Origin: a virus
Virus record (IMG/VR): IMGVR_UViG_3300043430_000111
Span: 1-54,535 of that record
Length of the DNA: 54,535 bases
Reading direction: 5' to 3' (one strand)
Shown piece by piece: positions 6,805 through 37,670 of the stretch. The translations under genes and the position numbers were made by a program. The notes below the pieces were generated by a model that saw only the letters and a program-made list of their open reading frames with translations, had not been told where the DNA came from and searched no databases. Each line of letters opens with the position of its first letter. Positions within the stretch are counted from its first letter, which is position 1.

Positions 6805-6841
6805 GTGTGCTTTCTGTGTGGATGGCCCAGTGAGGGCCATC

Positions 6842-6879
6842 GTTATCAGGCGGTTTGTGACGCCTAATAACGGTTAGGC
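6842..6879 (+). repeat. Degenerate attC-like hairpin (left end of array)
   Basis: GTTATcAGGCG (6842-6852) pairs with CGCCTaATAAC (6861-6871) around an 8-base loop, then a GTTAGGC box follows at 6873-6879. The left outer box is poorly conserved. It occupies the place that an attC (or an attI-like target) would have at the left border of the array. The TAA stop of the next gene lies in its GTTAGGC box, as in three of the intact copies. Confidence 0.5.
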
Positions 6880-7179
6880 CCTAACATCCCTGCGCACTGC
6901 GGCACGCATCTGTGCCGCGCCATCGGCAATCGTCACCTCACCAAGGCAGTGAGACAGCGCGCCCGTCAGACCGCTTTGCATGGGCATCGTGAGCATTGCC
7001 ACGCGGGCCAGCAGCTCAGGCAGCGGCACTTCAAAGCCGTCGCCAAGATCAACGATGGATTCACAGGCCTGCTGCGACATCTCGAAGTAGGCGTCATCGT
7101 CACTGCGGATGTGCTCGGGGTACAGCAGGCGCAGCAACTCGTGCATTTCCAGATCGTCAAGTGGGTGCGGTTTCTTCAT
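6874..7179 (-). CDS. Cassette-borne hypothetical protein, 101 aa
   Basis: A 101-aa protein starting MKKPHPLDDLEMHELLRLLYPEH, mostly helical and acidic in the first half. No family recognised. The stop codon TAA is supplied by the GTTAGGC box of the hairpin to its left. Its leader (7180-7208) reads ACAACGACGAGAGG before the ATG on the minus strand and is nearly the same as that of the next unit (7632-7660), so the two units share a translation start region. It is the leftmost gene of the attC-like array. Confidence 0.65.
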   Translation of the reverse strand: MKKPHPLDDLEMHELLRLLYPEHIRSDDDAYFEMSQQACESIVDLGDGFEVPLPELLARVAMLTMPMQSGLTGALSHCLGEVTIADGAAQMRAAVRRDVRA

Positions 7180-7208
7180 GTTGGTCCTCTCGTCGTTGTG
7201 GCTGCATG

Positions 7209-7262
7209 GCCTAACCGTTCGCTCAAGCGGACGCAGAGCGCCGCTTAGCTGTCTGGTTAGGC
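7209..7262 (+). repeat. attC-like site A (54 bp)
   Basis: Outer boxes GCCTAAC (7209-7215) and GTTAGGC (7256-7262). The inner left arm GCTcAAGCGGaCGC and right arm GCGCCGCTTAGC pair except for an unpaired c and a in the left arm, the hallmark asymmetry of attC L''/L'. It differs from site D at two bases near the left box. The top strand of the attC is the plus strand. Confidence 0.8.
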
Positions 7263-7631
7263 CCCAAACGCATCGCGTCGCATCTCTTCATGCCACTCGG
7301 CCCGCCGATCGTCTTGACGGAGCGATGCCGCGTCGGGCTCGTGCAACTCGGGGGGTTGAAGTTGTGCGCTAGACCATTCTTCGGCGTCAAAGTCGGCCAG
7401 TTCTTCGGCGTGTTCTTCGGCGCCATGCGGCCACTCGATGACTTGCGCTTTGCATTGGTCGACGGTCACCGCCCACTGAGACAATTTCTCGGGGTTTTTG
7501 TCGAAGAACCCCTGCATGTCCTTGTTGTGGCGCGCCGCCATGTGTTCGGCCATGGCGCGGCTTGGTGCAGCGTGAAGATCATCAGGACCGGGGATGCGAA
7601 TGCACCAGAGTCCTTCTGTTGTTTGGTTCAT
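7257..7631 (-). CDS. Cassette-borne hypothetical protein, 124 aa
   Basis: A 124-aa acidic protein (MNQTTEGLWCIRIPGPDD). The first half looks like a compact domain with AMAEHMAARHNKDMQGFF; the second half is rich in Glu, Ala and His and probably disordered. I know similar proteins only as phage or prophage hypotheticals. The TAA stop at 7257-7259 is part of the attC-like right box. One gene between two attC-like sites is the typical content of a gene cassette, but the gene points the opposite way. Confidence 0.65.
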   Translation of the reverse strand: MNQTTEGLWCIRIPGPDDLHAAPSRAMAEHMAARHNKDMQGFFDKNPEKLSQWAVTVDQCKAQVIEWPHGAEEHAEELADFDAEEWSSAQLQPPELHEPDAASLRQDDRRAEWHEEMRRDAFGA

Positions 7632-7660
7632 GTCGTTCCTCTCGTCGTTGTGGCCACCAG

Positions 7661-7717
7661 GCCTAACCGGGCGCTCAAGCGGACGCCTTCGGCGCGCGCT
7701 TAGCTGTCTGGTTAGGC
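7661..7717 (+). repeat. attC-like site B (57 bp)
   Basis: Outer boxes GCCTAAC (7661-7667) and GTTAGGC (7711-7717). The left arm is the same as in sites A and D. The tip differs: CGCC-TTCG-GGCG-type pairing extends the stem with a TTCG loop. The outer spacer GCTGTCTG before the right box is also shared with A and D. Confidence 0.8.
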
Positions 7718-7975
7718 GTCACTTGGCTTGCCGCCGCATCGCTCACTCATGCAGTACGTCAAGCGGCCTAGTTCCGTCAAGCCGTAGCCTTCCACGGTGC
7801 AGGGCAACGGTCCATTCATGCGTTCGGACACCTTGCGCAACAGACCATCAGCTACCAACGCATCGGCGCGCTTCTTGGCCTTGGTCTGCATCATGTATAG
7901 CGGGCTCTTGTTCATGGCCGCTTCAACTTCCGCCGAAAACGCCCGTTCAAGAAGGTCAAGGTCTTTGCTGTTCAT
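7712..7975 (-). CDS. Cassette-borne putative winged-helix protein, 87 aa
   Basis: An 87-aa protein (MNSKDLDLLERAFSAEVEAA). The stretch KKRADALVADGLLRKVSERM...GYGLTELGRLTYC reads like a winged-helix end (recognition helix, beta wing, and an LTELGR motif common in MarR/PadR-like folds). The DNA-binding role is an inference from this pattern only. The TAA stop is inside the right box of site B. The leader carries GAAGAGGAAACC before the ATG. Confidence 0.6.
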   Translation of the reverse strand: MNSKDLDLLERAFSAEVEAAMNKSPLYMMQTKAKKRADALVADGLLRKVSERMNGPLPCTVEGYGLTELGRLTYCMSERCGGKPSDA

Positions 7976-8002
7976 CGGTTTCCTCTTCGTTCATCACGTA
8001 AC

Positions 8003-8057
8003 GCCTAACCGCCAGTTCAACCGGACGCCAAGGCGCCGGTTAACTTATTGGTTAGGC
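8003..8057 (+). repeat. attC-like site C (55 bp)
   Basis: Outer boxes GCCTAAC (8003-8009) and GTTAGGC (8051-8057). The left arm GTTcAACCGGaCGC pairs with GCGCCGGTTAAC. Compared with sites A and D both arms have changed together (GCT/AGC to GTT/AAC, and AAGCGG/CCGCTT to AACCGG/CCGGTT), while the unpaired c and a stay in place. This covariation shows that the fold is under selection. Confidence 0.82.
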
Positions 8058-8330
8058 CTCAGGGTCCGTGGCGGGGTTGCTGAAGAAACCGTCATCGCGC
8101 GGGGTCTGGCCCTCCGGCATGATCTTTGTGGGAAAGCCTGCTGCCTGGCACTCAGCGGCCTCATCAAGCGCGTCTTGCGGCGGTTTGGCTGGACATAGAT
8201 GCGCCGAGTTCATTTCCCAGTCGGTGCCCAGTTCCTCGATACCGCAATTGCTGTCAATCCACACCACGAACAGCAAAGGCCTTTCCGGCCGTTTGGTAGT
8301 CGTCGGTTGCTTCTCAATGACGTGGTTCAT
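8052..8330 (-). CDS. Cassette-borne hypothetical protein, 92 aa
   Basis: A 92-aa protein (MNHVIEKQPTTTKRPERPLLFVVWIDSN). A short beta-rich centre (LLFVVWIDSNCGIEELG) is followed by a helix (QDALDEAAECQAAGFPTKIM). No family recognised. The TAA stop lies in the right box of site C. The leader between its ATG and site D is about 100 bp and GC-rich, longer than in the other units. Confidence 0.62.
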   Translation of the reverse strand: MNHVIEKQPTTTKRPERPLLFVVWIDSNCGIEELGTDWEMNSAHLCPAKPPQDALDEAAECQAAGFPTKIMPEGQTPRDDGFFSNPATDPEA

Positions 8331-8430
8331 CTGGCTCCTATCCGGCCCACTCCGTGAGCCTCCGAATCAAACGCTCGGCCTGGCGGCCCAGCTTGGTGTG
8401 GTGCCCACGGTGGGCGGTGTCGGTGGCATG

Positions 8431-8484
8431 GCCTAACCGGGCGCTCAAGCGGACGCAGAGCGCCGCTTAGCTGTCTGGTTAGGC
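8431..8484 (+). repeat. attC-like site D (54 bp)
   Basis: Outer boxes GCCTAAC (8431-8437) and GTTAGGC (8478-8484). The arms and tip are identical to site A, with only CGGGC in place of CGTTC beside the left box. It is the rightmost intact copy; no copy was found to the right of the next gene. Confidence 0.82.
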
Positions 8485-8485
8485 G

Positions 8486-9454
8486 TTACTTGGCTGCGAG
8501 CATGGCGGCGCGGCAGGCGTTCCACCCCTCTGCATAACCTGCGGCCTGACCGGAACAGTAGTCGTACTCTGTGCCATCTTCAACGGGTGAGGCAATAGCG
8601 TCCGGCACGCTCGGCGCTGGGCGGGTGTATAGCTTTGTTCCTGGGGTCAGCAAGAGCCCTGTTTCAATGATGAACCCATCCCTGTCAACATAAGCCACCG
8701 ACGCACCCGTGGCGGGCTGCTGGGCCTCTGCCTGCGTGGCCTGGGCTGGCTGCGGGGTGGTGTAAATCTTGGTGCCAACAGGGGCTTCGTCTGCTCTGAA
8801 GCAGGCCATCGTGAAGCCCGATGTTCCCGGCATCGTGCCTACTTCACCAATAGGCTCACCCTGCACCTGAGAGCAGGCTTGCAGGGCGAAGGCGCACATT
8901 TGGTCGGCAGTGAAGCCTCGCAATGCTTGCGTACCCACAACGATTACGCCTTCAGGCTCTGGCAGCGGCGGCAGTTGGTTGGTGTCTTTCATCTCTCGCA
9001 TCTGGCGTGCAGAGAATGCAGGCTGATTGCTCTTGTCGGTCTTGATGTCGTGGTGGGCTTCTGCTGCCCATACGCCGCGCATGAATGTGCCTCGGTATCC
9101 ATACGACTTGCTCTGCTTCAGGTAGGCTTCACGGCGCTCATCATCTGTCATCGGCACCCGCTCAGGGCGCAGGGCAAGGATGGCGCGGGCGTAAGCACGG
9201 TGCGCCTGAAGCATTACGCCAATTTGTTCACCCCACTGCTCTACAGTTACGGCATCAATATCAGCATCCGTCACCCCTGCCCATTGTGGAGCGGCTGTGA
9301 GTGACAAAGATGCTTGTGAATCAGATTCGGCGTTCTGTGCTCCACAAACCAGCATGGCCTCCCGCATCTGGCGTGCAGAGAATGCAGGCTGATTGCTTAT
9401 ATCCGTCTTGATGTAGCCAAGATCAGGCTCAGGCAATTGGTTGGTGTCGGTCAT
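8486..9454 (-). CDS. Hypothetical protein with internal duplication, 322 aa
   Basis: A 322-aa protein of a type known as hypothetical in phages. Two halves each start with a similar leader: MTDTNQLPEPD... at residue 1 and MKDTNQLPPLPEPEG at about residue 152. Each half is linked to the block SNQPAFSARQMRE. A 35-nt exact DNA repeat (8997-9031 and 9363-9397, 366 bp apart, in frame) underlies this. It looks like a fusion of two related reading frames after a duplication. The C-terminal half has TKIYTTPQP and TKLYTRPAP repeats. Its TAA stop (8486-8488) lies two bases outside site D, unlike the other array genes. It may be the operon gene next to the array or its fifth unit. Confidence 0.65.
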   Translation of the reverse strand: MTDTNQLPEPDLGYIKTDISNQPAFSARQMREAMLVCGAQNAESDSQASLSLTAAPQWAGVTDADIDAVTVEQWGEQIGVMLQAHRAYARAILALRPERVPMTDDERREAYLKQSKSYGYRGTFMRGVWAAEAHHDIKTDKSNQPAFSARQMREMKDTNQLPPLPEPEGVIVVGTQALRGFTADQMCAFALQACSQVQGEPIGEVGTMPGTSGFTMACFRADEAPVGTKIYTTPQPAQATQAEAQQPATGASVAYVDRDGFIIETGLLLTPGTKLYTRPAPSVPDAIASPVEDGTEYDYCSGQAAGYAEGWNACRAAMLAAK

Positions 9455-9653: not shown

Positions 9654-9895
9654 TGAATACTCCCGACCCACGCCCACAGCCACCCTCGGCCACCTCGCCC
9701 CGTGGGCTCGCGGGTGCCAACGATGCGAACGAGCTTGTGGTTCGACAGCGAGCGCAAGATGCGACCAACGCTGTAGCGGTGCGCGTCGGTGACCGGCAGA
9801 CCGAGATCGGTGCACAACTCAACGATGGTGTGGGGGCCTGTCAGAAGCAGGGTGATGATCCGCGATACGCGGTCGGCGTAACGGTGTTGGCTCAT
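9650..9895 (-). CDS. Winged-helix protein, 81 aa
   Basis: An 81-aa protein with the layout of a winged helix: helix (RVSRIITLLLTG), turn (HTIVELCTDLGLP), recognition helix (HRYSVGRILRSLSNHKLVRIVG) and wing. It overlaps both neighbours by 4 bp. Similar small proteins are found in phages of Burkholderiales. Regulation of the operon is possible but not shown. Confidence 0.6.
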   Translation of the reverse strand: MSQHRYADRVSRIITLLLTGPHTIVELCTDLGLPVTDAHRYSVGRILRSLSNHKLVRIVGTREPTGRGGRGWLWAWVGSIQ

Positions 9896-11223
9896 ACCGC
9901 AACCTCCATCTTCACGAACGGATGGTGGCGGTATCCCTTGATGTGGAAGTCGTCCAACTTGTAGCCGTCGATGTCGGTGTTATCGGTGAGGATCACCAAC
10001 TGGGCCTCGTCACGGATGATGTCGCGCCCCAGAACCTGCCGCATCTTCTCGACGTGGTTTGAGTAGAGGTGCGCGTCACCGATGTCCACCAGCAGGCGGC
10101 GCGGCTTGAGGTTTGCGGCACGGGCGTACAGGTGCGTGAGCAGTGCGTAGGCAGCTACGTTGAACGGCAGGCCAAGAGCCACGTCCGATGAGCGCATGAA
10201 TAGCTTGAGGTCAAGGTGCCCGTCGTTGGACACGTAGCACTGGTGTGTGTGATGACATGGGGGCAGCGCCATGCGATCAAGTTCGCCAACATTCCATGAC
10301 GTGACAATGTGTCGGCGGCCATGGGGGTTGGTGCGAAGACCCTCGATGAGCGTCTTCACTTGGTCGAACTCCTTGCGTAGCGGTGTGCGAGAAACAAACT
10401 CAAAGCCGTCTCGCCTCTTAGCATTCTTGTTGCCGGTCCACAGATCGGAGAAGTTCTTTGGCTCAATTCCATGTTCATCACAGAACTCGCTCACGTTCGT
10501 AAAGGCGAACCCTTCACCATTGCGGCGCACCACGTAGAGCCACTCAGCCTTGGCCGACGCATTCTCTTTGTCACTCACGAAGCAACAGGTCTCAGGTGCA
10601 TACCTGAACCCGTCCCCGAGAATGTCCTTGTCCAAGACCTTGCGATAACGTCCGAGTTCGAGGCAGTAACCGGGCAAGTTGCTAAGGTCTCCTGCAAAGG
10701 CTCGGAACTCAAGCCAGCGGTCACAAACATGAACGCCTCTGGCTCCGTAGCTCTTATAACTGATGTTCTTCGGGTCGTAGCAACGACCCATCATGCCTTC
10801 CCAGGTCTTGCCAAAGCGGCTCTCACCCTTTCCAGCACCGTTGCCAATTCCAAGATAGGTCGCCTCAACGCCATCGCGCAGACGGGGCTTGGGTTGCGGG
10901 ATGTTGTCCGGCCTTGCGCCCCATCGACGCCAGTTGAATCCATACACAGGGCCGAGGTTTCCATTCTCATCAGCCCAGGCATCCCACAGCTTGCTACCGC
11001 GCTCGTTCAGCCACTTGACGTTTGTCTGTCCACTCAGGAAGAACAGCATCTCCAGGAATGCCGTCAGCCACCGCGTCTCCTTGGCCGTCACCAGGGGGAA
11101 GCGTTCGCGCAGGTCGAACTCCAGGTTGGCACCGAAGACGGCGAGGGTGCCGACTCCGGTACGGTCGTCGCGCAGCTCACCTTCCGCCAAGATGCGGGCG
11201 ACGAGGTTAAGGTACTGTTTCAT
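9892..11223 (-). CDS. thyA: Thymidylate synthase with inserted nuclease-like domain
   Basis: A 443-aa protein. Residues 1-103 (MKQYLNLVARIL..., DRTGVGT, LWDAWADENGNLGPVYG) and 281-443 (RRHIVTSWNVGELDRMALPPCHHTHQCYV, DVALGLPFNVAAYALL, DAHLYSNH) are ThyA, which makes dTMP from dUMP; the catalytic Cys is about 323. Between them, about residues 104-280 (DNA 10384-10914) are extra compared with the usual 260-aa enzyme. This insert matches phage HNH/AP2-like endonucleases: KTWEGMMGRCYDPKNISY, YGARGVHVCDRW, VLDKDILGDGFRYAP, then a NUMOD-like helical part (VSEFCDEHGIEPKNF). No stop codon and no intein motifs occur, so it is probably kept in the protein as an insertion beside the active site. An in-frame intron is less likely, given the size. 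Confidence 0.85.
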   Translation of the reverse strand: MKQYLNLVARILAEGELRDDRTGVGTLAVFGANLEFDLRERFPLVTAKETRWLTAFLEMLFFLSGQTNVKWLNERGSKLWDAWADENGNLGPVYGFNWRRWGARPDNIPQPKPRLRDGVEATYLGIGNGAGKGESRFGKTWEGMMGRCYDPKNISYKSYGARGVHVCDRWLEFRAFAGDLSNLPGYCLELGRYRKVLDKDILGDGFRYAPETCCFVSDKENASAKAEWLYVVRRNGEGFAFTNVSEFCDEHGIEPKNFSDLWTGNKNAKRRDGFEFVSRTPLRKEFDQVKTLIEGLRTNPHGRRHIVTSWNVGELDRMALPPCHHTHQCYVSNDGHLDLKLFMRSSDVALGLPFNVAAYALLTHLYARAANLKPRRLLVDIGDAHLYSNHVEKMRQVLGRDIIRDEAQLVILTDNTDIDGYKLDDFHIKGYRHHPFVKMEVAV

Positions 11224-21866: not shown

Positions 21867-22087
21867 TGGCCCAGCGCAACTACCCTGCGGGCGCACTGGT
21901 CCGGGTCAACGACATCTGCCGCAACCCCAAGACCGGCGCGGCCGGTATCCTACCGCTCGGCCGCTCCACGTGGTATCGCTGGATTCAAGAAGGCAAAGTG
22001 CCCGAGGGTGTCAGCCTCGCGGGCACGGCCACGAAGGTGTGGCCCATCGAGACTGTGCTGGCGCTCGCCGGTCAGGCCGACAACTGA
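21866..22087 (+). CDS. AlpA-like regulator / excisionase candidate
   Basis: A 73-aa protein with a winged-helix pattern of AlpA/MerR-type (VNDICRNPKTGAAGILPLGRSTWYRWIQEGKVPEGVSLAGTATKVWPIETVLALA in outline). The block SxWYRWIxxGKxP is typical of AlpA, which activates phage or element excision. It is convergent with the integrase gene and overlaps it by 16 bp, so an excisionase or integrase regulator role fits the place. Confidence 0.72.
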   Translation: MAQRNYPAGALVRVNDICRNPKTGAAGILPLGRSTWYRWIQEGKVPEGVSLAGTATKVWPIETVLALAGQADN

Positions 22088-23271
22088 TCTATCCGGTCAG
22101 CCAGGAATTGCAGAGCACGCCGACGCTCGTCCGCGTGCTCTGCGTGCGTATAGGCGGCAACAACCGCACTGCGCTCCTGGTGTGACAGCAGCAACTCCAC
22201 CACCTCCCGCGAGAACCCGTGCTCACGCAGCAGCGTCGCCGCGGTGCTGCGCGTACCGTGTGGTGAGAACTGCGGCACCCCGAAGTTCAGCCGCTTGAAC
22301 ATGTGGTTGAGCGTGACTTCTGCGATGGGCCGACCATTGCCGTTCACAAAGCGCGTCGGGAAGACGTACTGACCGTGACCGGTGATCCGCTTGAGGTAGG
22401 TCAGCAACTCGACCGCCTGCCGAGACAGATACACCCGGTGGGGCTTGCCGTTCTTCATCCGTTCCTCGGGGATGTCCCACAACCCCTTGTCCAAGTCGAA
22501 TTCCGGCCACTCGGCCAGCCGCAACTCCGTCTTTCGCACCATCGTCAGCATGAGCAGCTTGGCGGCGTAGACCGTGATGATGGTCGCCTGCCGCTGACGG
22601 TTCAACTCCGTCCAGAACGCACCCAACTCCACCTCGCTCAAGTGCCGGTGGTGGGTGGCGGGCGGCACGGAGATGGCACCGCGTACTGCCGTCGCCGGGT
22701 TGCCGTCAACCAGCAGTTTGCGAATGGCGAAGTTGAAAACCTGCTGGATGAGTGATCGACACCGGTCTGCCGTGGTCGGGATGTGCTTGTTTGACTCCAT
22801 GATGGCGAGCACGTCGCGCGGCTTGACCTCGGTGAGTGCTTTGGCTCCGATGCTCGGGTTGATGTAGGAGTCCAGAAACCGGATGCACTGTGAGCGGTAC
22901 GCCTCCGACCGATAGAACAGCGTCTCCTTCACCCAGGTCTTTGCGAACGCCTCGAAAGTCGGCACGTCCGGCTCCGGCTCGCGCTCGGCCTTTTTCTCGT
23001 CAGCCGGGTCGATGCCGCGCGCCACGTCCGAGCGCAGCCGCTCATGGAGGGTTCGCGCATCCGCGATGCTGATCTGGGGGTACGGGCCGATAGTGAACTT
23101 GGGGCGCCGGCCCGCCAGCCGGTACGTGTACCTCCACACCTTCGAGCCCCCCGGCAGGACTTCCAGGTACAGCCCGCCACCGTCCGTGAGCACATAGGGC
23201 TTGTCTTTTGGCTTGGATGCGTTGATGACGGTCGGCTTGAGTGTGTAGTTGATGTGTCGTTGCTGTCCCAT
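22072..23271 (-). CDS. int: Tyrosine integrase (P4-type)
   Basis: A 399-aa integrase with the N-terminal DUF4102 arm-binding domain (LTDGGGLYLEVLPGGSKVWRYTYRLAGRRPKFTIGPYP in outline), a SAM-like core-binding domain and a catalytic domain. Catalytic residues are R246 (MVRKTELRL), H338-x-x-R341 (HGTR), H364 (LLSHQ) and Y374. It inserts the phage into the host chromosome. Start 23271 (MGQQRHINYTLKP) is the usual P4-type start; the longer frame runs into attP. It has no IntI-specific insert, so it is not an integron integrase. Confidence 0.88.
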   Translation of the reverse strand: MGQQRHINYTLKPTVINASKPKDKPYVLTDGGGLYLEVLPGGSKVWRYTYRLAGRRPKFTIGPYPQISIADARTLHERLRSDVARGIDPADEKKAEREPEPDVPTFEAFAKTWVKETLFYRSEAYRSQCIRFLDSYINPSIGAKALTEVKPRDVLAIMESNKHIPTTADRCRSLIQQVFNFAIRKLLVDGNPATAVRGAISVPPATHHRHLSEVELGAFWTELNRQRQATIITVYAAKLLMLTMVRKTELRLAEWPEFDLDKGLWDIPEERMKNGKPHRVYLSRQAVELLTYLKRITGHGQYVFPTRFVNGNGRPIAEVTLNHMFKRLNFGVPQFSPHGTRSTAATLLREHGFSREVVELLLSHQERSAVVAAYTHAEHADERRRALQFLADRIDQLSA

Positions 23272-32769: not shown

Positions 32770-33168
32770 TCAGACTTCCATGAGTCGAATGGTGCAGCGG
32801 TAGTAGTCCCCTGCTTCCACATCAGAAAAATGCACGACAGGCTCGGCGTCGATGGCGTTGCCGTCGTGATGCCGGAAGATCACAGTCCGGGGTGTCGAAC
32901 GCAGTGTAAGCACCAACTCTTTGGCGGGAACTGCGGCCCAATTTCGCAACTGCTCAACAGTGCTGCGTGGGTGCCACGCGCTCTTGTCGTCTTGCGGCTG
33001 GAGGGTGATCGGCCTGCCGCCGATACGCGCAGCCACGTTAACGATGAGGGCGCCGGTGATCGTGCGCTCGACCGTCTGCTCGACCGGGTGCCACGAGTTC
33101 TCGTCTTCCCAATACAAGTCCGGGTGCAGTGTGACGGTGGTAGTGCCGTCGCTCAGTGTGATGCTCAT
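32770..33168 (-). CDS. Tail protein, 132 aa
   Basis: A 132-aa beta-rich protein (MSITLSDGTTTVTLHPDLYWEDENSWHPVEQTVERT) directly after the tape measure gene. The site and fold suggest a distal-tail-like protein, though it is shorter than classical Dit. It overlaps the tape measure gene by 4 bp. Confidence 0.6.
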   Translation of the reverse strand: MSITLSDGTTTVTLHPDLYWEDENSWHPVEQTVERTITGALIVNVAARIGGRPITLQPQDDKSAWHPRSTVEQLRNWAAVPAKELVLTLRSTPRTVIFRHHDGNAIDAEPVVHFSDVEAGDYYRCTIRLMEV

Positions 33169-36100
33169 GATGCGGTCCCTGCTGCTGACTCAAGCTGCTT
33201 GAAGATGTCGGCCAACTTGTCTGCGTCGGCCTGGGATGCGGTGTTGACGCTAGACGACTTGCTGCCGAACTTGACGACGACTGTGGTGGAGCGCCCGACG
33301 CCGGAGACTTTGCTGCCTCCGGTTGAGCCTCCCGTGGCGTCCATAGCCGCCATCGCAGCGGCGACCATTGCGCGAGTGTCTTGCTGCGCCTGAAGCGAGA
33401 AGGCCGCGGGGTTCAACTTCATCGTCCCCTCCATCCAGTTCTGTGCGGCCAGAGCCTGCTTGTATGCGGCCTGCGCCTGCTCCTTTGTCACGTCACTCAG
33501 CTTCCCTGTGTTGACCGCCTCCAGCACCGCAAACGCTTGGTCAACCGGCAAGTTGTTGTTGAACGTGCCCGCTGCCGACCCGTCTTTGTTGGCGATGAAG
33601 CCATCGCTGGTGTATCCGTATGGCGCGGGGTCTGTTCCACCCCCACCACCTTGCAATTGCCGCCGCCGTCGCATTGCGTCCGTTTCCTTGTCGATGGCCC
33701 CGGCGTTACGCTCTCGGTCGTCTGCCTCCTGGCCTAGTGACCGGCCGAGAGAGTCCGAACTATTTCGGTTTGCGTCTTTCAGCGATGTGCTGTTTTGCAG
33801 CGCCCGAATCTCAGACTCCAATGCCCCGACCGCTTGACCGCGAGCCTTCGCTTCGATGATCTTGGCCTCGGCCAACTTGATGCTGGTCTCCAACTCGATC
33901 TGAGCGGCCTTGTTCAGCGGCTCTGTGCGGCGCAGTTCTTCCAACTTGGCCTTGGCAACCTCAATGATCGACTGCTGTTCGATCATCTGCGCCTGTACCG
34001 TGGCTTTGATGATGGCGATTTCAACGCGCTTTTGCTCGATCTTTGCGTAGCGAACCGCGTTCTCGTCACCCATAGCTTGAGCGGTACGCAACATCGCCTC
34101 GACCTCTGCTTTACGAGCGCCGAGGCTTGCGGTCGCAAGGGTGATGTCGGCCTGCTGAGATTTTGCAGAAACCTCTTGCAGCTTGATCTTGTCCTTGAGC
34201 GCATCGTTGTACAGCGCGACCGCAGCGGCCGCATCCTTCTCTGCCGCAACCCATTCACCTTGCGTGGCGCGACCATTTCGATAGGCTTCGGCCACCTGAG
34301 CGGCGGCTTCTGAAGTAGCGAGCATCGTCTGCCGGTATTGCTCCAGGGACGCCGAGTTGTCTCGGTTCATCTGCTGGTTCAAACGCGCCTGCTCCAGTTG
34401 CAGTTGCGCCGCCATCGCGGCGTTGCGAGACGATGCCGCCTCCGCATCCAACTTCTCAACCTTCTGCTGGATGGCTTGAATCTCAACCTCGCGCCCCTTG
34501 GTGGACCCGTCCTGTGCGATGGCAAGTTTGACCATCTCGGCCAACTGAACGCGCATCACCGCGGCTTCGTTTTCACGCGCGGTTGCGACACGCCCGAGCG
34601 CGCCAGCCTTCATGTCAGATGCGGTCACTGCGGCTTGCAGCGACGCGGTTTCCTGACCGCGCAAACCAGCGAGGCGTTCGATAGCTTGCGACTCCAACTC
34701 GACCGCCTTCGCCTGCTTCTCGGCCACCGTCACGGCTTGCGTTTGCTGGGCTGCGAGTTCCGTCAACCTCCCGGTGAGTGCGACCCAGGAGCCCGTTGAC
34801 GCATCCGCCGATCCTTTGGTGATGCGCTGTGCTTCTGCGAGTGCGAGCGCCCCAGCCTCGGTGGTTCTCGCGGTCTCTCCGTTCTTTGCAATCTCGTCCG
34901 TGTTGAACTTGATGGCGTCTTTTGTTGAATTTGCCGCCGACCCCAGACGACCTTGCGCATTGGCGGCTCGCATCATCGCTGCCGCACCTTCTTCGGTGGG
35001 GTTTACCATCTGCGACATCGCATCGGATACGGCTGCGATTCGCTCCCCGCTCTTTCGAGCTTCCTCGTTGAAGAACCCCCAGGCTTCCTTGAAGTCGCCT
35101 TTGAGCGCTGCGTTCAAGGCCACCAAACCCTTGACCATCAGTTGAATACCCTCGTATGCAGCTACGAGAGTTTGGGCGACCGCCCCAACAATAAATCCGA
35201 AAACCTTAAGAGTCCCGGAGAGTAATGCGAGTGCTCCGTTAGCCTCAGCGGTCTGCGCCGAAACCGTCAGTACGTTCTTGAACCGCTCCCAGGTCTGACG
35301 AACGCCGTCCGTCTCACCTTGTAGCGTCTGCAACCCCTTGGTGAACGCAGGGAAGAAGTCGCGCGCAGCGAGTTGCCCAGACTCCACCAACTTGATAAGT
35401 TGTGCGTCTGTCACACCAAGACCCTGGGCAGTCAAACTCAGCGCGCCTGGAACTGCATCGCCCAACTGCTGCCGCAGTTCTTCCATTGAGACGGTATTGT
35501 GGTGCTCAAAACCTTGCGCATCCAGATACAGGTGGTCTCCGGAAATCAGGAACCCGTAAAAGTCACCTTCGTTTTCGTATGCAACAGAAAACGCAACTTC
35601 ACCAAGATTTGCGTGTCGCAACGAATACTCGGCCTGCGCATGTTGGCTCAACCGCAGGTACTCAGCAACTGTCAATGTCTCGGCCGCGCCCGCGCGGTTC
35701 ACCCGCATCTTGTGTTCTTCGTTCACAACGAAGGATTCACCAACCTGCGGGGCGATGCGGTACATCGCAGACTTACCGTGCGCCAGCATCAGAACTACGC
35801 GCGCTGACCCATCGGGACCGAACAGCGACTCTCCCACACGCACCTGTTCGACCGTCTTGGTCGATCCGTCAGCCATGCGGATTAGAGTGCCGGGGGCGTG
35901 ACAGCCCTTGCTGGCAATCTGCCCCAGAGCATTGAGCGCAAGGCTCGTCTTGTCGGCGCCGAGGCCCAGCGACGACGACGCGCGTGTCAGAGCGGTGAAC
36001 AGCGCATTCGTGTCACCGAGCGGGATGTTCGACGCCTTCGTGGCCGCGGAGAACCGAACGAAGTCGGTTACCAGCCCAGAAATGGAGACGCCGGCCCCGA

Positions 36101-37670
36101 CTGCCGTGCGGCGCAAGAATTCCATCTGCGAAGCGGCGACGGCCGAGTCCTTGTAGATCGCCGTCAGACCCTTGCGCATCGACTCGGCTTGCAAGGTCAC
36201 TTCAATGAACGCGCGGCCCATCGCCTTGACCTTCTCCACCACCGACGCAATACCGTCAGCGATCAGATTGCCTGCCGCGATCTGACCCATCGAGTTCTTG
36301 AGCAGGCCGGCCGCACGGTCAGCCAAGGTGATCTGCCCCGTGGCCGCGCGCATCTCGCGCTCCAACTCTCGAATTTGCACGGAGCCGGACGACATCGCCA
36401 CCTTCAACTCCGCACCGGTCAGACCAGCCTGCGACGAGAGCGTGTCCATCGCCCCGCGCACTTTCTCGATCTCGGCGCGAAGCTCGTTGGCCCCGCGCAT
36501 CCCGACCGTTGAAAAGGCGTTAGTGATCGCCTGGGCGTTCTTGTTGGCACTCTGCTGGATCGCCGCCGTCTTCTCGGCTTCGAGTCGCACTGTCAGTGCC
36601 GCAGCCTCACGCTGGGCTTGGTTCTCGGCGGCGAGAGACTGCCGAGCCTGAATCTCCAAACGCTCACGGGTCTGACGCTGAAGCTCGTATAGCCTGTCCG
36701 ACTCAGCCTGCTCGCGTTTGCGCTCCGCAATGATCGCGTCCGTCTTGGCCTTCTCGATGGCGCGTTCTTCCGCCGCAGCCTTCTCGCGCGCCGCCGCAGC
36801 CTGCTGGCGCAGACGAATCTCAGCATTGAGCGACGCGATTCGCTCGGCTTCGCTCTTGGCTGTGCGCTCGGATTCTTCGCGCGCCTTGCGCTCCGCAGCA
36901 GCAGTATGCTCGATGGCCTGTGACTTATCGCGGGCCGCGGCACCGGTGTTGTTGAACGCCTGGATCAACTGCGCTTGCGTCTGTGCTAAGTCCTGAGTCG
37001 CCAGTCCGGCCTGCTCGGTCTCCGTGCGCGACTTTTCCAACTCCCGACTGGCCTTCGCCAGTTCATCGTTGCGCTTGCCGAGCTGTGTGAGCGAAGCGTT
37101 GTACTGCCGCTCCAGTCGCTTCTCTGCGGCTTCAGCCTCGCTCAGAGACTGGTTGGCTGTGCGCTGTTCGGCCTGGAGCCGCTTGGTCTCCTGCGTCGCT
37201 GCGGTCTTGGCGTCGATCAACTCACGCAGACGAGCCTCGTACTGCTTGGTCCCCTTCTCCGCATCCCCCACGCCACCGCGCAACTTCTGCAACTCACCTG
37301 CGAGGCGCGAGACCTCCTGCTGAGATGCGAGGTATGCGGCGCCCGCCCGCTCTTGGCTGTCTGCGGCGGTCTCGGTCGCGGTGCGCGAGGCGGCGAGCCG
37401 CTGCGCCAGCTCATCGACCTTTGTGGCGGCAAGCCCCTGCTTATCGGCCACCTTCTGCGTAGCGTCGGCCAACTGCTCGAACGCACGCAGCGCCTCGGCC
37501 TGGGAACCCAGGCGACCGATCTCGTCCGCAAGTTTCTGGAACTCCGGTGCGGCATCGCCACCCTCTTGGGCGAGCTTTTGCACCTGATCCTGAAGTTTCT
37601 TGATCTCGTCGGCCCCCAGCGTTTCCACGCTCAGGGTCATCTTCACATCGCGGTTGTTGCCTGCTGCCAT
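33165..37670 (-). CDS. Tape measure protein with intein
   Basis: A 1501-aa precursor. Residues 1-420 are coiled coil with many Ala, Glu and Gln repeats; 430-780 contain the conserved tape measure domain, with LKVAMSSGSVQIRELEREMR, QMEFLRRTAVGAGVSI and LALNALGQIASKG...TVSMEELRQQLGDAVPGAL. It sets tail length and is ejected with DNA. A 136-residue mini-intein (590-725) splits the block between ASKG and TVSMEEL; without it the protein has 1365 residues. Hydrophobic parts (about 840-880) may cross the membrane at ejection. AGGAACC precedes the ATG. Confidence 0.88.
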   Translation of the reverse strand: MAAGNNRDVKMTLSVETLGADEIKKLQDQVQKLAQEGGDAAPEFQKLADEIGRLGSQAEALRAFEQLADATQKVADKQGLAATKVDELAQRLAASRTATETAADSQERAGAAYLASQQEVSRLAGELQKLRGGVGDAEKGTKQYEARLRELIDAKTAATQETKRLQAEQRTANQSLSEAEAAEKRLERQYNASLTQLGKRNDELAKASRELEKSRTETEQAGLATQDLAQTQAQLIQAFNNTGAAARDKSQAIEHTAAAERKAREESERTAKSEAERIASLNAEIRLRQQAAAAREKAAAEERAIEKAKTDAIIAERKREQAESDRLYELQRQTRERLEIQARQSLAAENQAQREAAALTVRLEAEKTAAIQQSANKNAQAITNAFSTVGMRGANELRAEIEKVRGAMDTLSSQAGLTGAELKVAMSSGSVQIRELEREMRAATGQITLADRAAGLLKNSMGQIAAGNLIADGIASVVEKVKAMGRAFIEVTLQAESMRKGLTAIYKDSAVAASQMEFLRRTAVGAGVSISGLVTDFVRFSAATKASNIPLGDTNALFTALTRASSSLGLGADKTSLALNALGQIASKGCHAPGTLIRMADGSTKTVEQVRVGESLFGPDGSARVVLMLAHGKSAMYRIAPQVGESFVVNEEHKMRVNRAGAAETLTVAEYLRLSQHAQAEYSLRHANLGEVAFSVAYENEGDFYGFLISGDHLYLDAQGFEHHNTVSMEELRQQLGDAVPGALSLTAQGLGVTDAQLIKLVESGQLAARDFFPAFTKGLQTLQGETDGVRQTWERFKNVLTVSAQTAEANGALALLSGTLKVFGFIVGAVAQTLVAAYEGIQLMVKGLVALNAALKGDFKEAWGFFNEEARKSGERIAAVSDAMSQMVNPTEEGAAAMMRAANAQGRLGSAANSTKDAIKFNTDEIAKNGETARTTEAGALALAEAQRITKGSADASTGSWVALTGRLTELAAQQTQAVTVAEKQAKAVELESQAIERLAGLRGQETASLQAAVTASDMKAGALGRVATARENEAAVMRVQLAEMVKLAIAQDGSTKGREVEIQAIQQKVEKLDAEAASSRNAAMAAQLQLEQARLNQQMNRDNSASLEQYRQTMLATSEAAAQVAEAYRNGRATQGEWVAAEKDAAAAVALYNDALKDKIKLQEVSAKSQQADITLATASLGARKAEVEAMLRTAQAMGDENAVRYAKIEQKRVEIAIIKATVQAQMIEQQSIIEVAKAKLEELRRTEPLNKAAQIELETSIKLAEAKIIEAKARGQAVGALESEIRALQNSTSLKDANRNSSDSLGRSLGQEADDRERNAGAIDKETDAMRRRRQLQGGGGGTDPAPYGYTSDGFIANKDGSAAGTFNNNLPVDQAFAVLEAVNTGKLSDVTKEQAQAAYKQALAAQNWMEGTMKLNPAAFSLQAQQDTRAMVAAAMAAMDATGGSTGGSKVSGVGRSTTVVVKFGSKSSSVNTASQADADKLADIFKQLESAAGTAS
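35496..35903 (-). other. Mini-intein in the tape measure protein
   Basis: Residues 590-725 of the precursor. Block A is CHAPGTLIRMADGSTKTVEQ with the Cys nucleophile; block B is near SFVVNEEHKMRV; block F is DFYGFLISGDHLYL; block G ends HHN, followed by Thr as +1 residue. There is no homing endonuclease domain (136 aa). It sits in the best-conserved part of the tape measure domain, as inteins usually do. Protein splicing is predicted, not shown. Confidence 0.85.

Follow-up and report, generated by a model that had tools for sequence, protein, structure and literature searches.

The 6.84–8.49 kb region of the window, by which we mean the whole analysed stretch of 54,535 bases from a virus record, is best read, with a probability of about four in five, as a CALIN-type array that lacks an integrase and belongs to a phage-borne integron system. 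More broadly, phages have probably evolved integrons of their own, with an IntI lineage, a conserved attI and cassettes with reversed ORFs in the early operon, through which unrelated phages would pool largely counter-defence genes and which integrase-less phages would join in trans. This reading rests on sequence comparison, which shows attC identity of the hairpins, reversed polarity of the ORFs, intI and attI in relatives, junctions exact to the box and exchange between unrelated phages. A reversed, phage-encoded integron appears to be new, no description of it or of a phage intI lineage having been found in the searchable open literature, outside which preprints and subscription papers lie.

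With its terminase, head and tail genes, lysogeny integrase and replication module, the window is phage DNA. The four attC-type hairpins of the original prediction were confirmed in their positions (Table 1), boxes, arms and two unpaired bases. GCCTAAC and GTTAGGC form the outer boxes of every site, and the inner arms are paired save for two surplus bases of the left arm, a C and an A, at the positions of the extrahelical bases of the aadA1 attC, which was folded alongside. Sites A–D show the full attC architecture, namely RYYYAAC...GTTRRRY boxes, paired L''/L' arms and two strand-fixing extrahelical bases. Relative to A and D, site C has compensatory substitutions in the left and right inner arms (AACCGG/CCGGTT versus AAGCGG/CCGCTT), again as predicted. 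The suggested check with an attC covariance model was run with a model trained only on four plasmid class 1 integron attC sites (aadA1, aadB, catB3 and dfrB1); its strong matches in the window were exactly sites A–D, all on the + strand, at 42–48 bits (E ≤ 2.6e-9). As a yardstick, the established attC of aac(6')-Ib reaches 31–34 bits with the same class 1 model, and on the − strand of the window site A alone reaches 24.1 bits. Site B has a mismatched apical stem and failed the strictest stem rule, but passed the covariance model. The strict structural rule, which misses site B, gave no matches in 20 dinucleotide-shuffled versions of the window. Model scores and empty shuffles together show the observation to be genuine and well outside what chance would produce.

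Table 1. Features of the attC array and its surroundings (positions of the window; scores and E-values from the class 1 attC model).
Feature	Position	Strand	Evidence or remark
Fixed array end, candidate diverged attI (GCCTAAC, 25-nt spacer, GATAAC)	6839-6885	-	Phage-attI matrix; start of L206 homology
Cassette ORF, 101 aa, last before array end	6874-7179	-	Stop TAA inside GCCTAAC box; no family match
Leader, 29 nt, with Shine-Dalgarno, between site A and ATG of 101-aa ORF	7180-7208	-	Sequence; repeat family
attC site A	7209-7262	+	47.6 bits, E 6.8e-11; bottom strand, the recombinogenic one, is the operon coding strand
Cassette ORF, 124 aa	7257-7631	-	Stop TAA in R' box of site A; 71% identity over 86 residues to L207
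attC site B	7661-7717	+	42.7 bits, E 1.9e-9
Cassette ORF, 87 aa, phrog_2239	7712-7975	-	Stop TAA in R' box of site B
attC site C	8003-8057	+	43.4 bits, E 1.1e-9
Cassette ORF, 92 aa	8052-8330	-	Stop TAA in R' box of site C
Long leader and remnant coding sequence, site D to next start codon	8331-8430	-	130-nt stretch 85% identical in L207
attC site D	8431-8484	+	42.1 bits, E 2.6e-9
ORF, 322 aa, operon-upstream of site D	8486-9454	-	Stop directly before R' box of site D; weak phrog_5117 match

Four sites within 1.3 kb and no integron integrase among the profile matches of the window proteins correspond to a CALIN (at least two close attC sites, no intI) and not to a complete integron. The sole integrase found in the window is a tyrosine recombinase at 22072–23271, marked as a phage lysogeny integrase by its Arm-DNA-bind_3, Phage_int_M and Phage_integrase matches, which bears out the earlier statement that the window holds no integron integrase. 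Equally, each of the intervals A–B, B–C and C–D holds exactly one ORF, as had been claimed, with a leader and remnant of about 100 nt added in C–D. A hairpin is inserted at each of the four array borders, and other genes of the operon overlap by a few bases. The 29-nt leader next to site A is a near-copy of the leader behind site B (7632–7660), and the 92-aa ORF has homologues of 44% identity in the attC arrays of L011 and L118; the products of the window's own cassette ORFs are uncharacterised. Within the adjoining 322-aa ORF lies a 56-nt internal repeat (8993–9048 and 9359–9414; 91% identical), as if the gene had been built by duplication.

A normal cassette has its ORF on the top strand of the attC site, ending at the R'' box. 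None of the window ORFs is arranged in this way: all ORFs between the sites are on the − strand, the attC top strand is the + strand, and the stop codons fall within or adjoin the R' box, which in the reverse direction reads GCCTAAC. The original description of the region as a cassette cluster without integrase carried by a phage holds for the attC sites, the single-gene borders, the phage contig and the missing integrase; it is not supported as regards ordinary cassettes, as the ORFs are inverted.

A fifth, degenerate attC copy had been proposed at 6842. The stretch 6842–6887 has a single GCCTAAC box (6881–6875 on the − strand), no L arms and an attI-like spacing; it is not an attC site but the fixed end of the array. 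A phage-attI matrix applied to both window strands gave 6839–6885 as its top match, at 8.8 bits versus −4.2 for the next; a non-redundant attI matrix gave 12.5 bits, which is weak beside background maxima of up to 10.7 in other contigs, and the stretch is also a simple palindrome. Homology with L206 begins exactly at 6885, at the box, and the genes before it differ. This fixed end may be a diverged attI.

Complete forms of the system were found in other phages. The array of L159, a contig that also carries head, tail tape measure, major tail and tail fibre genes, includes a full integron integrase (TIGR02249, 428 bits; cut-off 265), which as bait retrieved relatives in 28 viral contigs. The aligned phage IntI proteins retain the catalytic residues and the integron-specific insert, and 15 of 19 form one clade (support 93/91) in a tree that included few bacterial IntI. 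In most of them a conserved attI, [GCCTAAC]-xTxAATTCGACCGC...CGTAACACC, directly precedes the intI start codon, and the genes preceding this attI are unrelated and differ from phage to phage. Upstream of intI, the attC sites occupy the strand opposite to it, which is the normal polarity relative to attI, and of the genes upstream of phage intI 78 are on the intI strand and 10 on the opposite one. As the order of attC and intI/attI is normal, only the ORFs are flipped, and they are read out of the early operon in the direction of attI and intI. Two damaged forms were also seen: a truncated integron-integrase remnant (L011:7621-7983, − strand) at the distal end of a reversed array, the place of the intact intI in other phages, and a phage integron integrase in two overlapping frames, apparently through a frameshift, in L253/L220 (G076:C1:42910-43867).

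Relatives of the window were compared for single units, as originally proposed. Four backbone relatives (terminase 59–76% identical) have 25–35 genes in common with the window and none of the array ORFs at 6874–8330, and 33 terminase relatives yielded no attC site at E < 0.01. L206, a phage with an unrelated backbone, contains homologues of only four window genes, yet site D (52/52 nt) and the array end recur in it, along with close matches to the other hairpins. The first 46 nt of site B recur unchanged in L132/L008, a contig that also has terminase- and portal-like genes. L135 has a 76% identical homologue of the 87-aa cassette ORF between other hairpins, and nucleotide homology ends at R'+6 in both. 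Hairpins of the window are matched in L206, L115 and L136; one L136 hairpin is identical in the intI-bearing L229, and L135 has a hairpin 96.5% identical in L234, which also carries intI. The window therefore displays what we propose as the marks of a phage-borne reversed integron, namely attC sites in a phage operon, reversed ORFs, and hairpins or cassettes in common with intI phages. With the DNA polymerase as bait, nothing was found in genomes and viral contigs.

Homology between arrays breaks at the boxes. L223 and L234, two of the phages with intI, are 93–97% identical along both array flanks and carry arrays that bear no relation to each other; the shared sequence ends at GCCTAACG (GCCTGACG in L234), after a gene of the backbone, and resumes at the attI box, as it also does in the pairs L223/L233, L233/L234 and L226/L244. 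For homologous genes in otherwise unrelated phages (13 families), identity is 73% in the 20 nt before the GCCTAAC box and 31% in the next 10 nt. The cleanest junction is that of L132/L192, with 96.5% identity over 547 bp and a break directly after GCCTAAC; L128 and L165 both carry ...CCTGATGCCTAACG, after which only one of them has a hairpin. Hairpins (56/56 and 50/50 nt identical) and cassette proteins (99.6% identity) are common to phages with intI and phages lacking it, so that both draw on the same pool.

The complete form in other phages has intI transcribed in the early operon, with attI just before the intI start and attC-bounded cassettes inserted there. The reversed ORFs are read from the phage operon toward intI, with their stops in or next to the R' box, the point of strand exchange (between GCCTAA and C). 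In the mechanism that we propose, an integron integrase from a co-resident phage or from the host would fold the attC bottom strand, in the window the coding strand, and phages and prophages would trade cassettes at R'; accessory genes of small size, often with a counter-defence role, could in this manner be swapped without breaking the operon. The role of IntI as the exchanger, the place and time of exchange and the activity of the window's sites are what we infer here. Bottom-strand exchange by IntI at R' accounts for the 3' junction of a gene but does not predict one further class of junction, as homologous genes part from hairpins equally sharply at the 5' box (R''). This counts against the integron explanation, as do the missing intI and the uncertain attI of the window. 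Nor does the mechanism account for the one-strand orientation of the ORFs, and homologous recombination between hairpins is a rival for part of the exchange.

The hairpins might instead be dispersed repeats that act as short homologies, at which phage recombinases shuffle genes and no integron integrase takes part. Shuffling by homologous recombination has been proposed for other phage intergenic stem-loops. We entertain a REP-like dispersal because the hairpins move alone: 57-nt hairpins are identical in contigs with nothing else in common, and at both boxes genes are uncoupled from their hairpins. It also counts against the integron explanation that the hairpins beside homologous genes are, upstream or downstream, no more alike than random pairs, a comparison without power for polarity. 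Hairpins away from cassette borders had been named beforehand as evidence that would speak against the integron reading, and identical hairpins without common flanks are partly of this kind, but they stand directly after a gene and have the same boxes. Dispersed repeats nevertheless seem unlikely, since the hairpins keep the full attC architecture, including both extrahelical bases and the polarity, since the breaks lie at 7-nt boxes and are not spread across the hairpin arms, and since a cognate integron integrase and a conserved attI stand beside many arrays.

Phage-carried attC clusters are not new in themselves: Qi et al. reported CALINs in 21 phages of scattered kinds in 2023 and proved some of their attC sites to be IntI1-active (PMC9892861). 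These observations, as well as the attC identity of the hairpins, would suit ordinary cassettes from a chromosomal or mobile integron of the host, merely carried by the phage. Polarity argues against such an origin. We surveyed several hundred sites, obtained by two pattern scans of viral contigs and the covariance model, scoring polarity with one simple gene caller and counting sites with identical flanks once; some of the contigs overlap, and because the scan pattern fixed letters of the boxes, box diversity is underestimated. The first set, from 78 viral contigs, gave 155 inverted and 7 canonical sites, 5 scored as both and 80 unscorable; the second added 28 inverted and no canonical sites, apart from contig L195. 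In total, 183 sites were inverted versus 7 canonical in about 75 other viral contigs, and among the canonical calls are two from L148, an integron in an isolate genome, as well as some that are probably shadow ORFs (L189, L157). In the same pipeline, 12 of 13 sites in class 1 arrays were canonical, as were all nine scorable sites of L195, a bacterial-type integron (TIGR02249, 489 bits), so that reversal is a property of the phage arrays and not of the method. L195 and L148 are IMG/VR 'viral' contigs from isolate genomes with the canonical attC order, and served as internal controls. Misassembly or a false ORF strand was ruled out, as the cassette ORFs include known families and bacterial integrons score canonical. 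Narrow searches also gave no match for site A in the nearest plasmids or named phages, and none for the exact window-like attC pattern in a species-representative genome collection. Ordinary cassettes in transit are accordingly a very improbable explanation. With their inverted ORFs, and with relatives that have their own intI and attI, the arrays resemble an integron system that is adapted to phages and exchanges within a pool of its own. The original suggestion that such a phage could move cassettes between integron-bearing hosts is possible in light of the IntI1-active phage sites (PMC9892861); the comparative data show exchange between phages instead.

The arrays described here and those of Qi et al. 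(PMC9892861) have in common attC clusters without intI in phages and DNA methyltransferase cargo; ORF-versus-attC polarity, phage intI lineages with their own attI and phage–phage exchange, absent from the main text of that paper, are all found here. The class 1 model gave no match on fetched parts of TJE1, P12002L and H101, three of the published phage CALINs, which indicates that it misses divergent attC sites. With class 1 and sedentary chromosomal integrons the phage system has in common a TIGR02249 integrase, attI, attC R and L boxes, two extrahelical bases and the polarity of attC and attI; unlike theirs, the phage ORFs are reversed and expressed from the phage operon toward attI, with intI co-directional and downstream of the cassettes. 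Co-directional intI and cassette genes also characterise the reverse integron of Treponema denticola (PMC4909258, PMC7691350), but there intI is flipped, the cassettes lie 3' of it and the ORF stop is in R'', an arrangement absent from the phage arrays, where the ORF is flipped within the cassette and its stop is in R'. The prophage integrons of Vibrio, Shewanella and P1 likewise place an integron integrase in a phage record; they are, however, described as chromosomal or class 1 segments (PMC9892861), and their IntI share 44–57% identity with those of the phages studied here. The named phage Rctr41k (KX853513) resembles our phages in having an integron-integrase-like gene downstream of co-directional small genes, but has no attC match with the narrow model, and its place in the tree is unsure.

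Least credible is that the hairpins are functional RNA elements of the operon mRNA, or terminators, and attC-like in appearance only: they do follow stop codons and precede Shine-Dalgarno leaders, and weak terminator activity has been suggested for attC sites (cited in PMC9892861), but they have no Rfam match and no T-run behind them, keep the attC-specific boxes and bulges, and form exact recombination junctions. A role as RNA may exist in addition to recombination.

Ninety non-redundant cassette proteins of the phage integron system were scanned against Pfam and PHROGs, and most of them belong to no family. Those named by Pfam are DNA methyltransferases (C5, N6/N4 and Dam), Mom, Lar restriction alleviation protein and Acb3 (anti-CBASS), besides an RNA ligase, a DHH phosphoesterase and a helicase; PHROGs added an HNH endonuclease and a queuine tRNA-ribosyltransferase. 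Judged by these family matches, anti-defence genes predominate in the identified cargo (methyltransferases, Mom, Lar and Acb3), and this hairpin-delimited company makes the small uncharacterised cassette genes candidates for anti-defence functions. If the phage integron reading is true, part of the mosaicism in the early regions of phages would have a site-specific cause, and there would be a route by which counter-defence genes spread among unrelated phages; the reading would also bear on two questions about integrons, the origin of cassettes and the reason why the polarities of ORF and attC are linked.

Leaders between hairpin and ATG in the arrays are mostly 20–39 nt long. Some genes start inside long attC sites (L011:11120-11602, L002:11153-11893 and others) and have N-termini such as GPVERTVRP and LSEGLGP, apparently the attC bottom strand translated in two frames. 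L170/L174 and L194 carry several near-identical hairpins per phage, recalling the homogeneous attC sites of chromosomal integrons. Elsewhere in the window, the tape measure protein (33165–37670, − strand) contains an intein-like insertion (...ASKGCHAPGTLIRMADGSTKTVEQVRVGESL...GFEHHNTVS...), and a thymidylate-synthase-like ORF (9892–11223, − strand) has an in-frame interruption of about 170 residues that resembles an HNH/homing-endonuclease segment.
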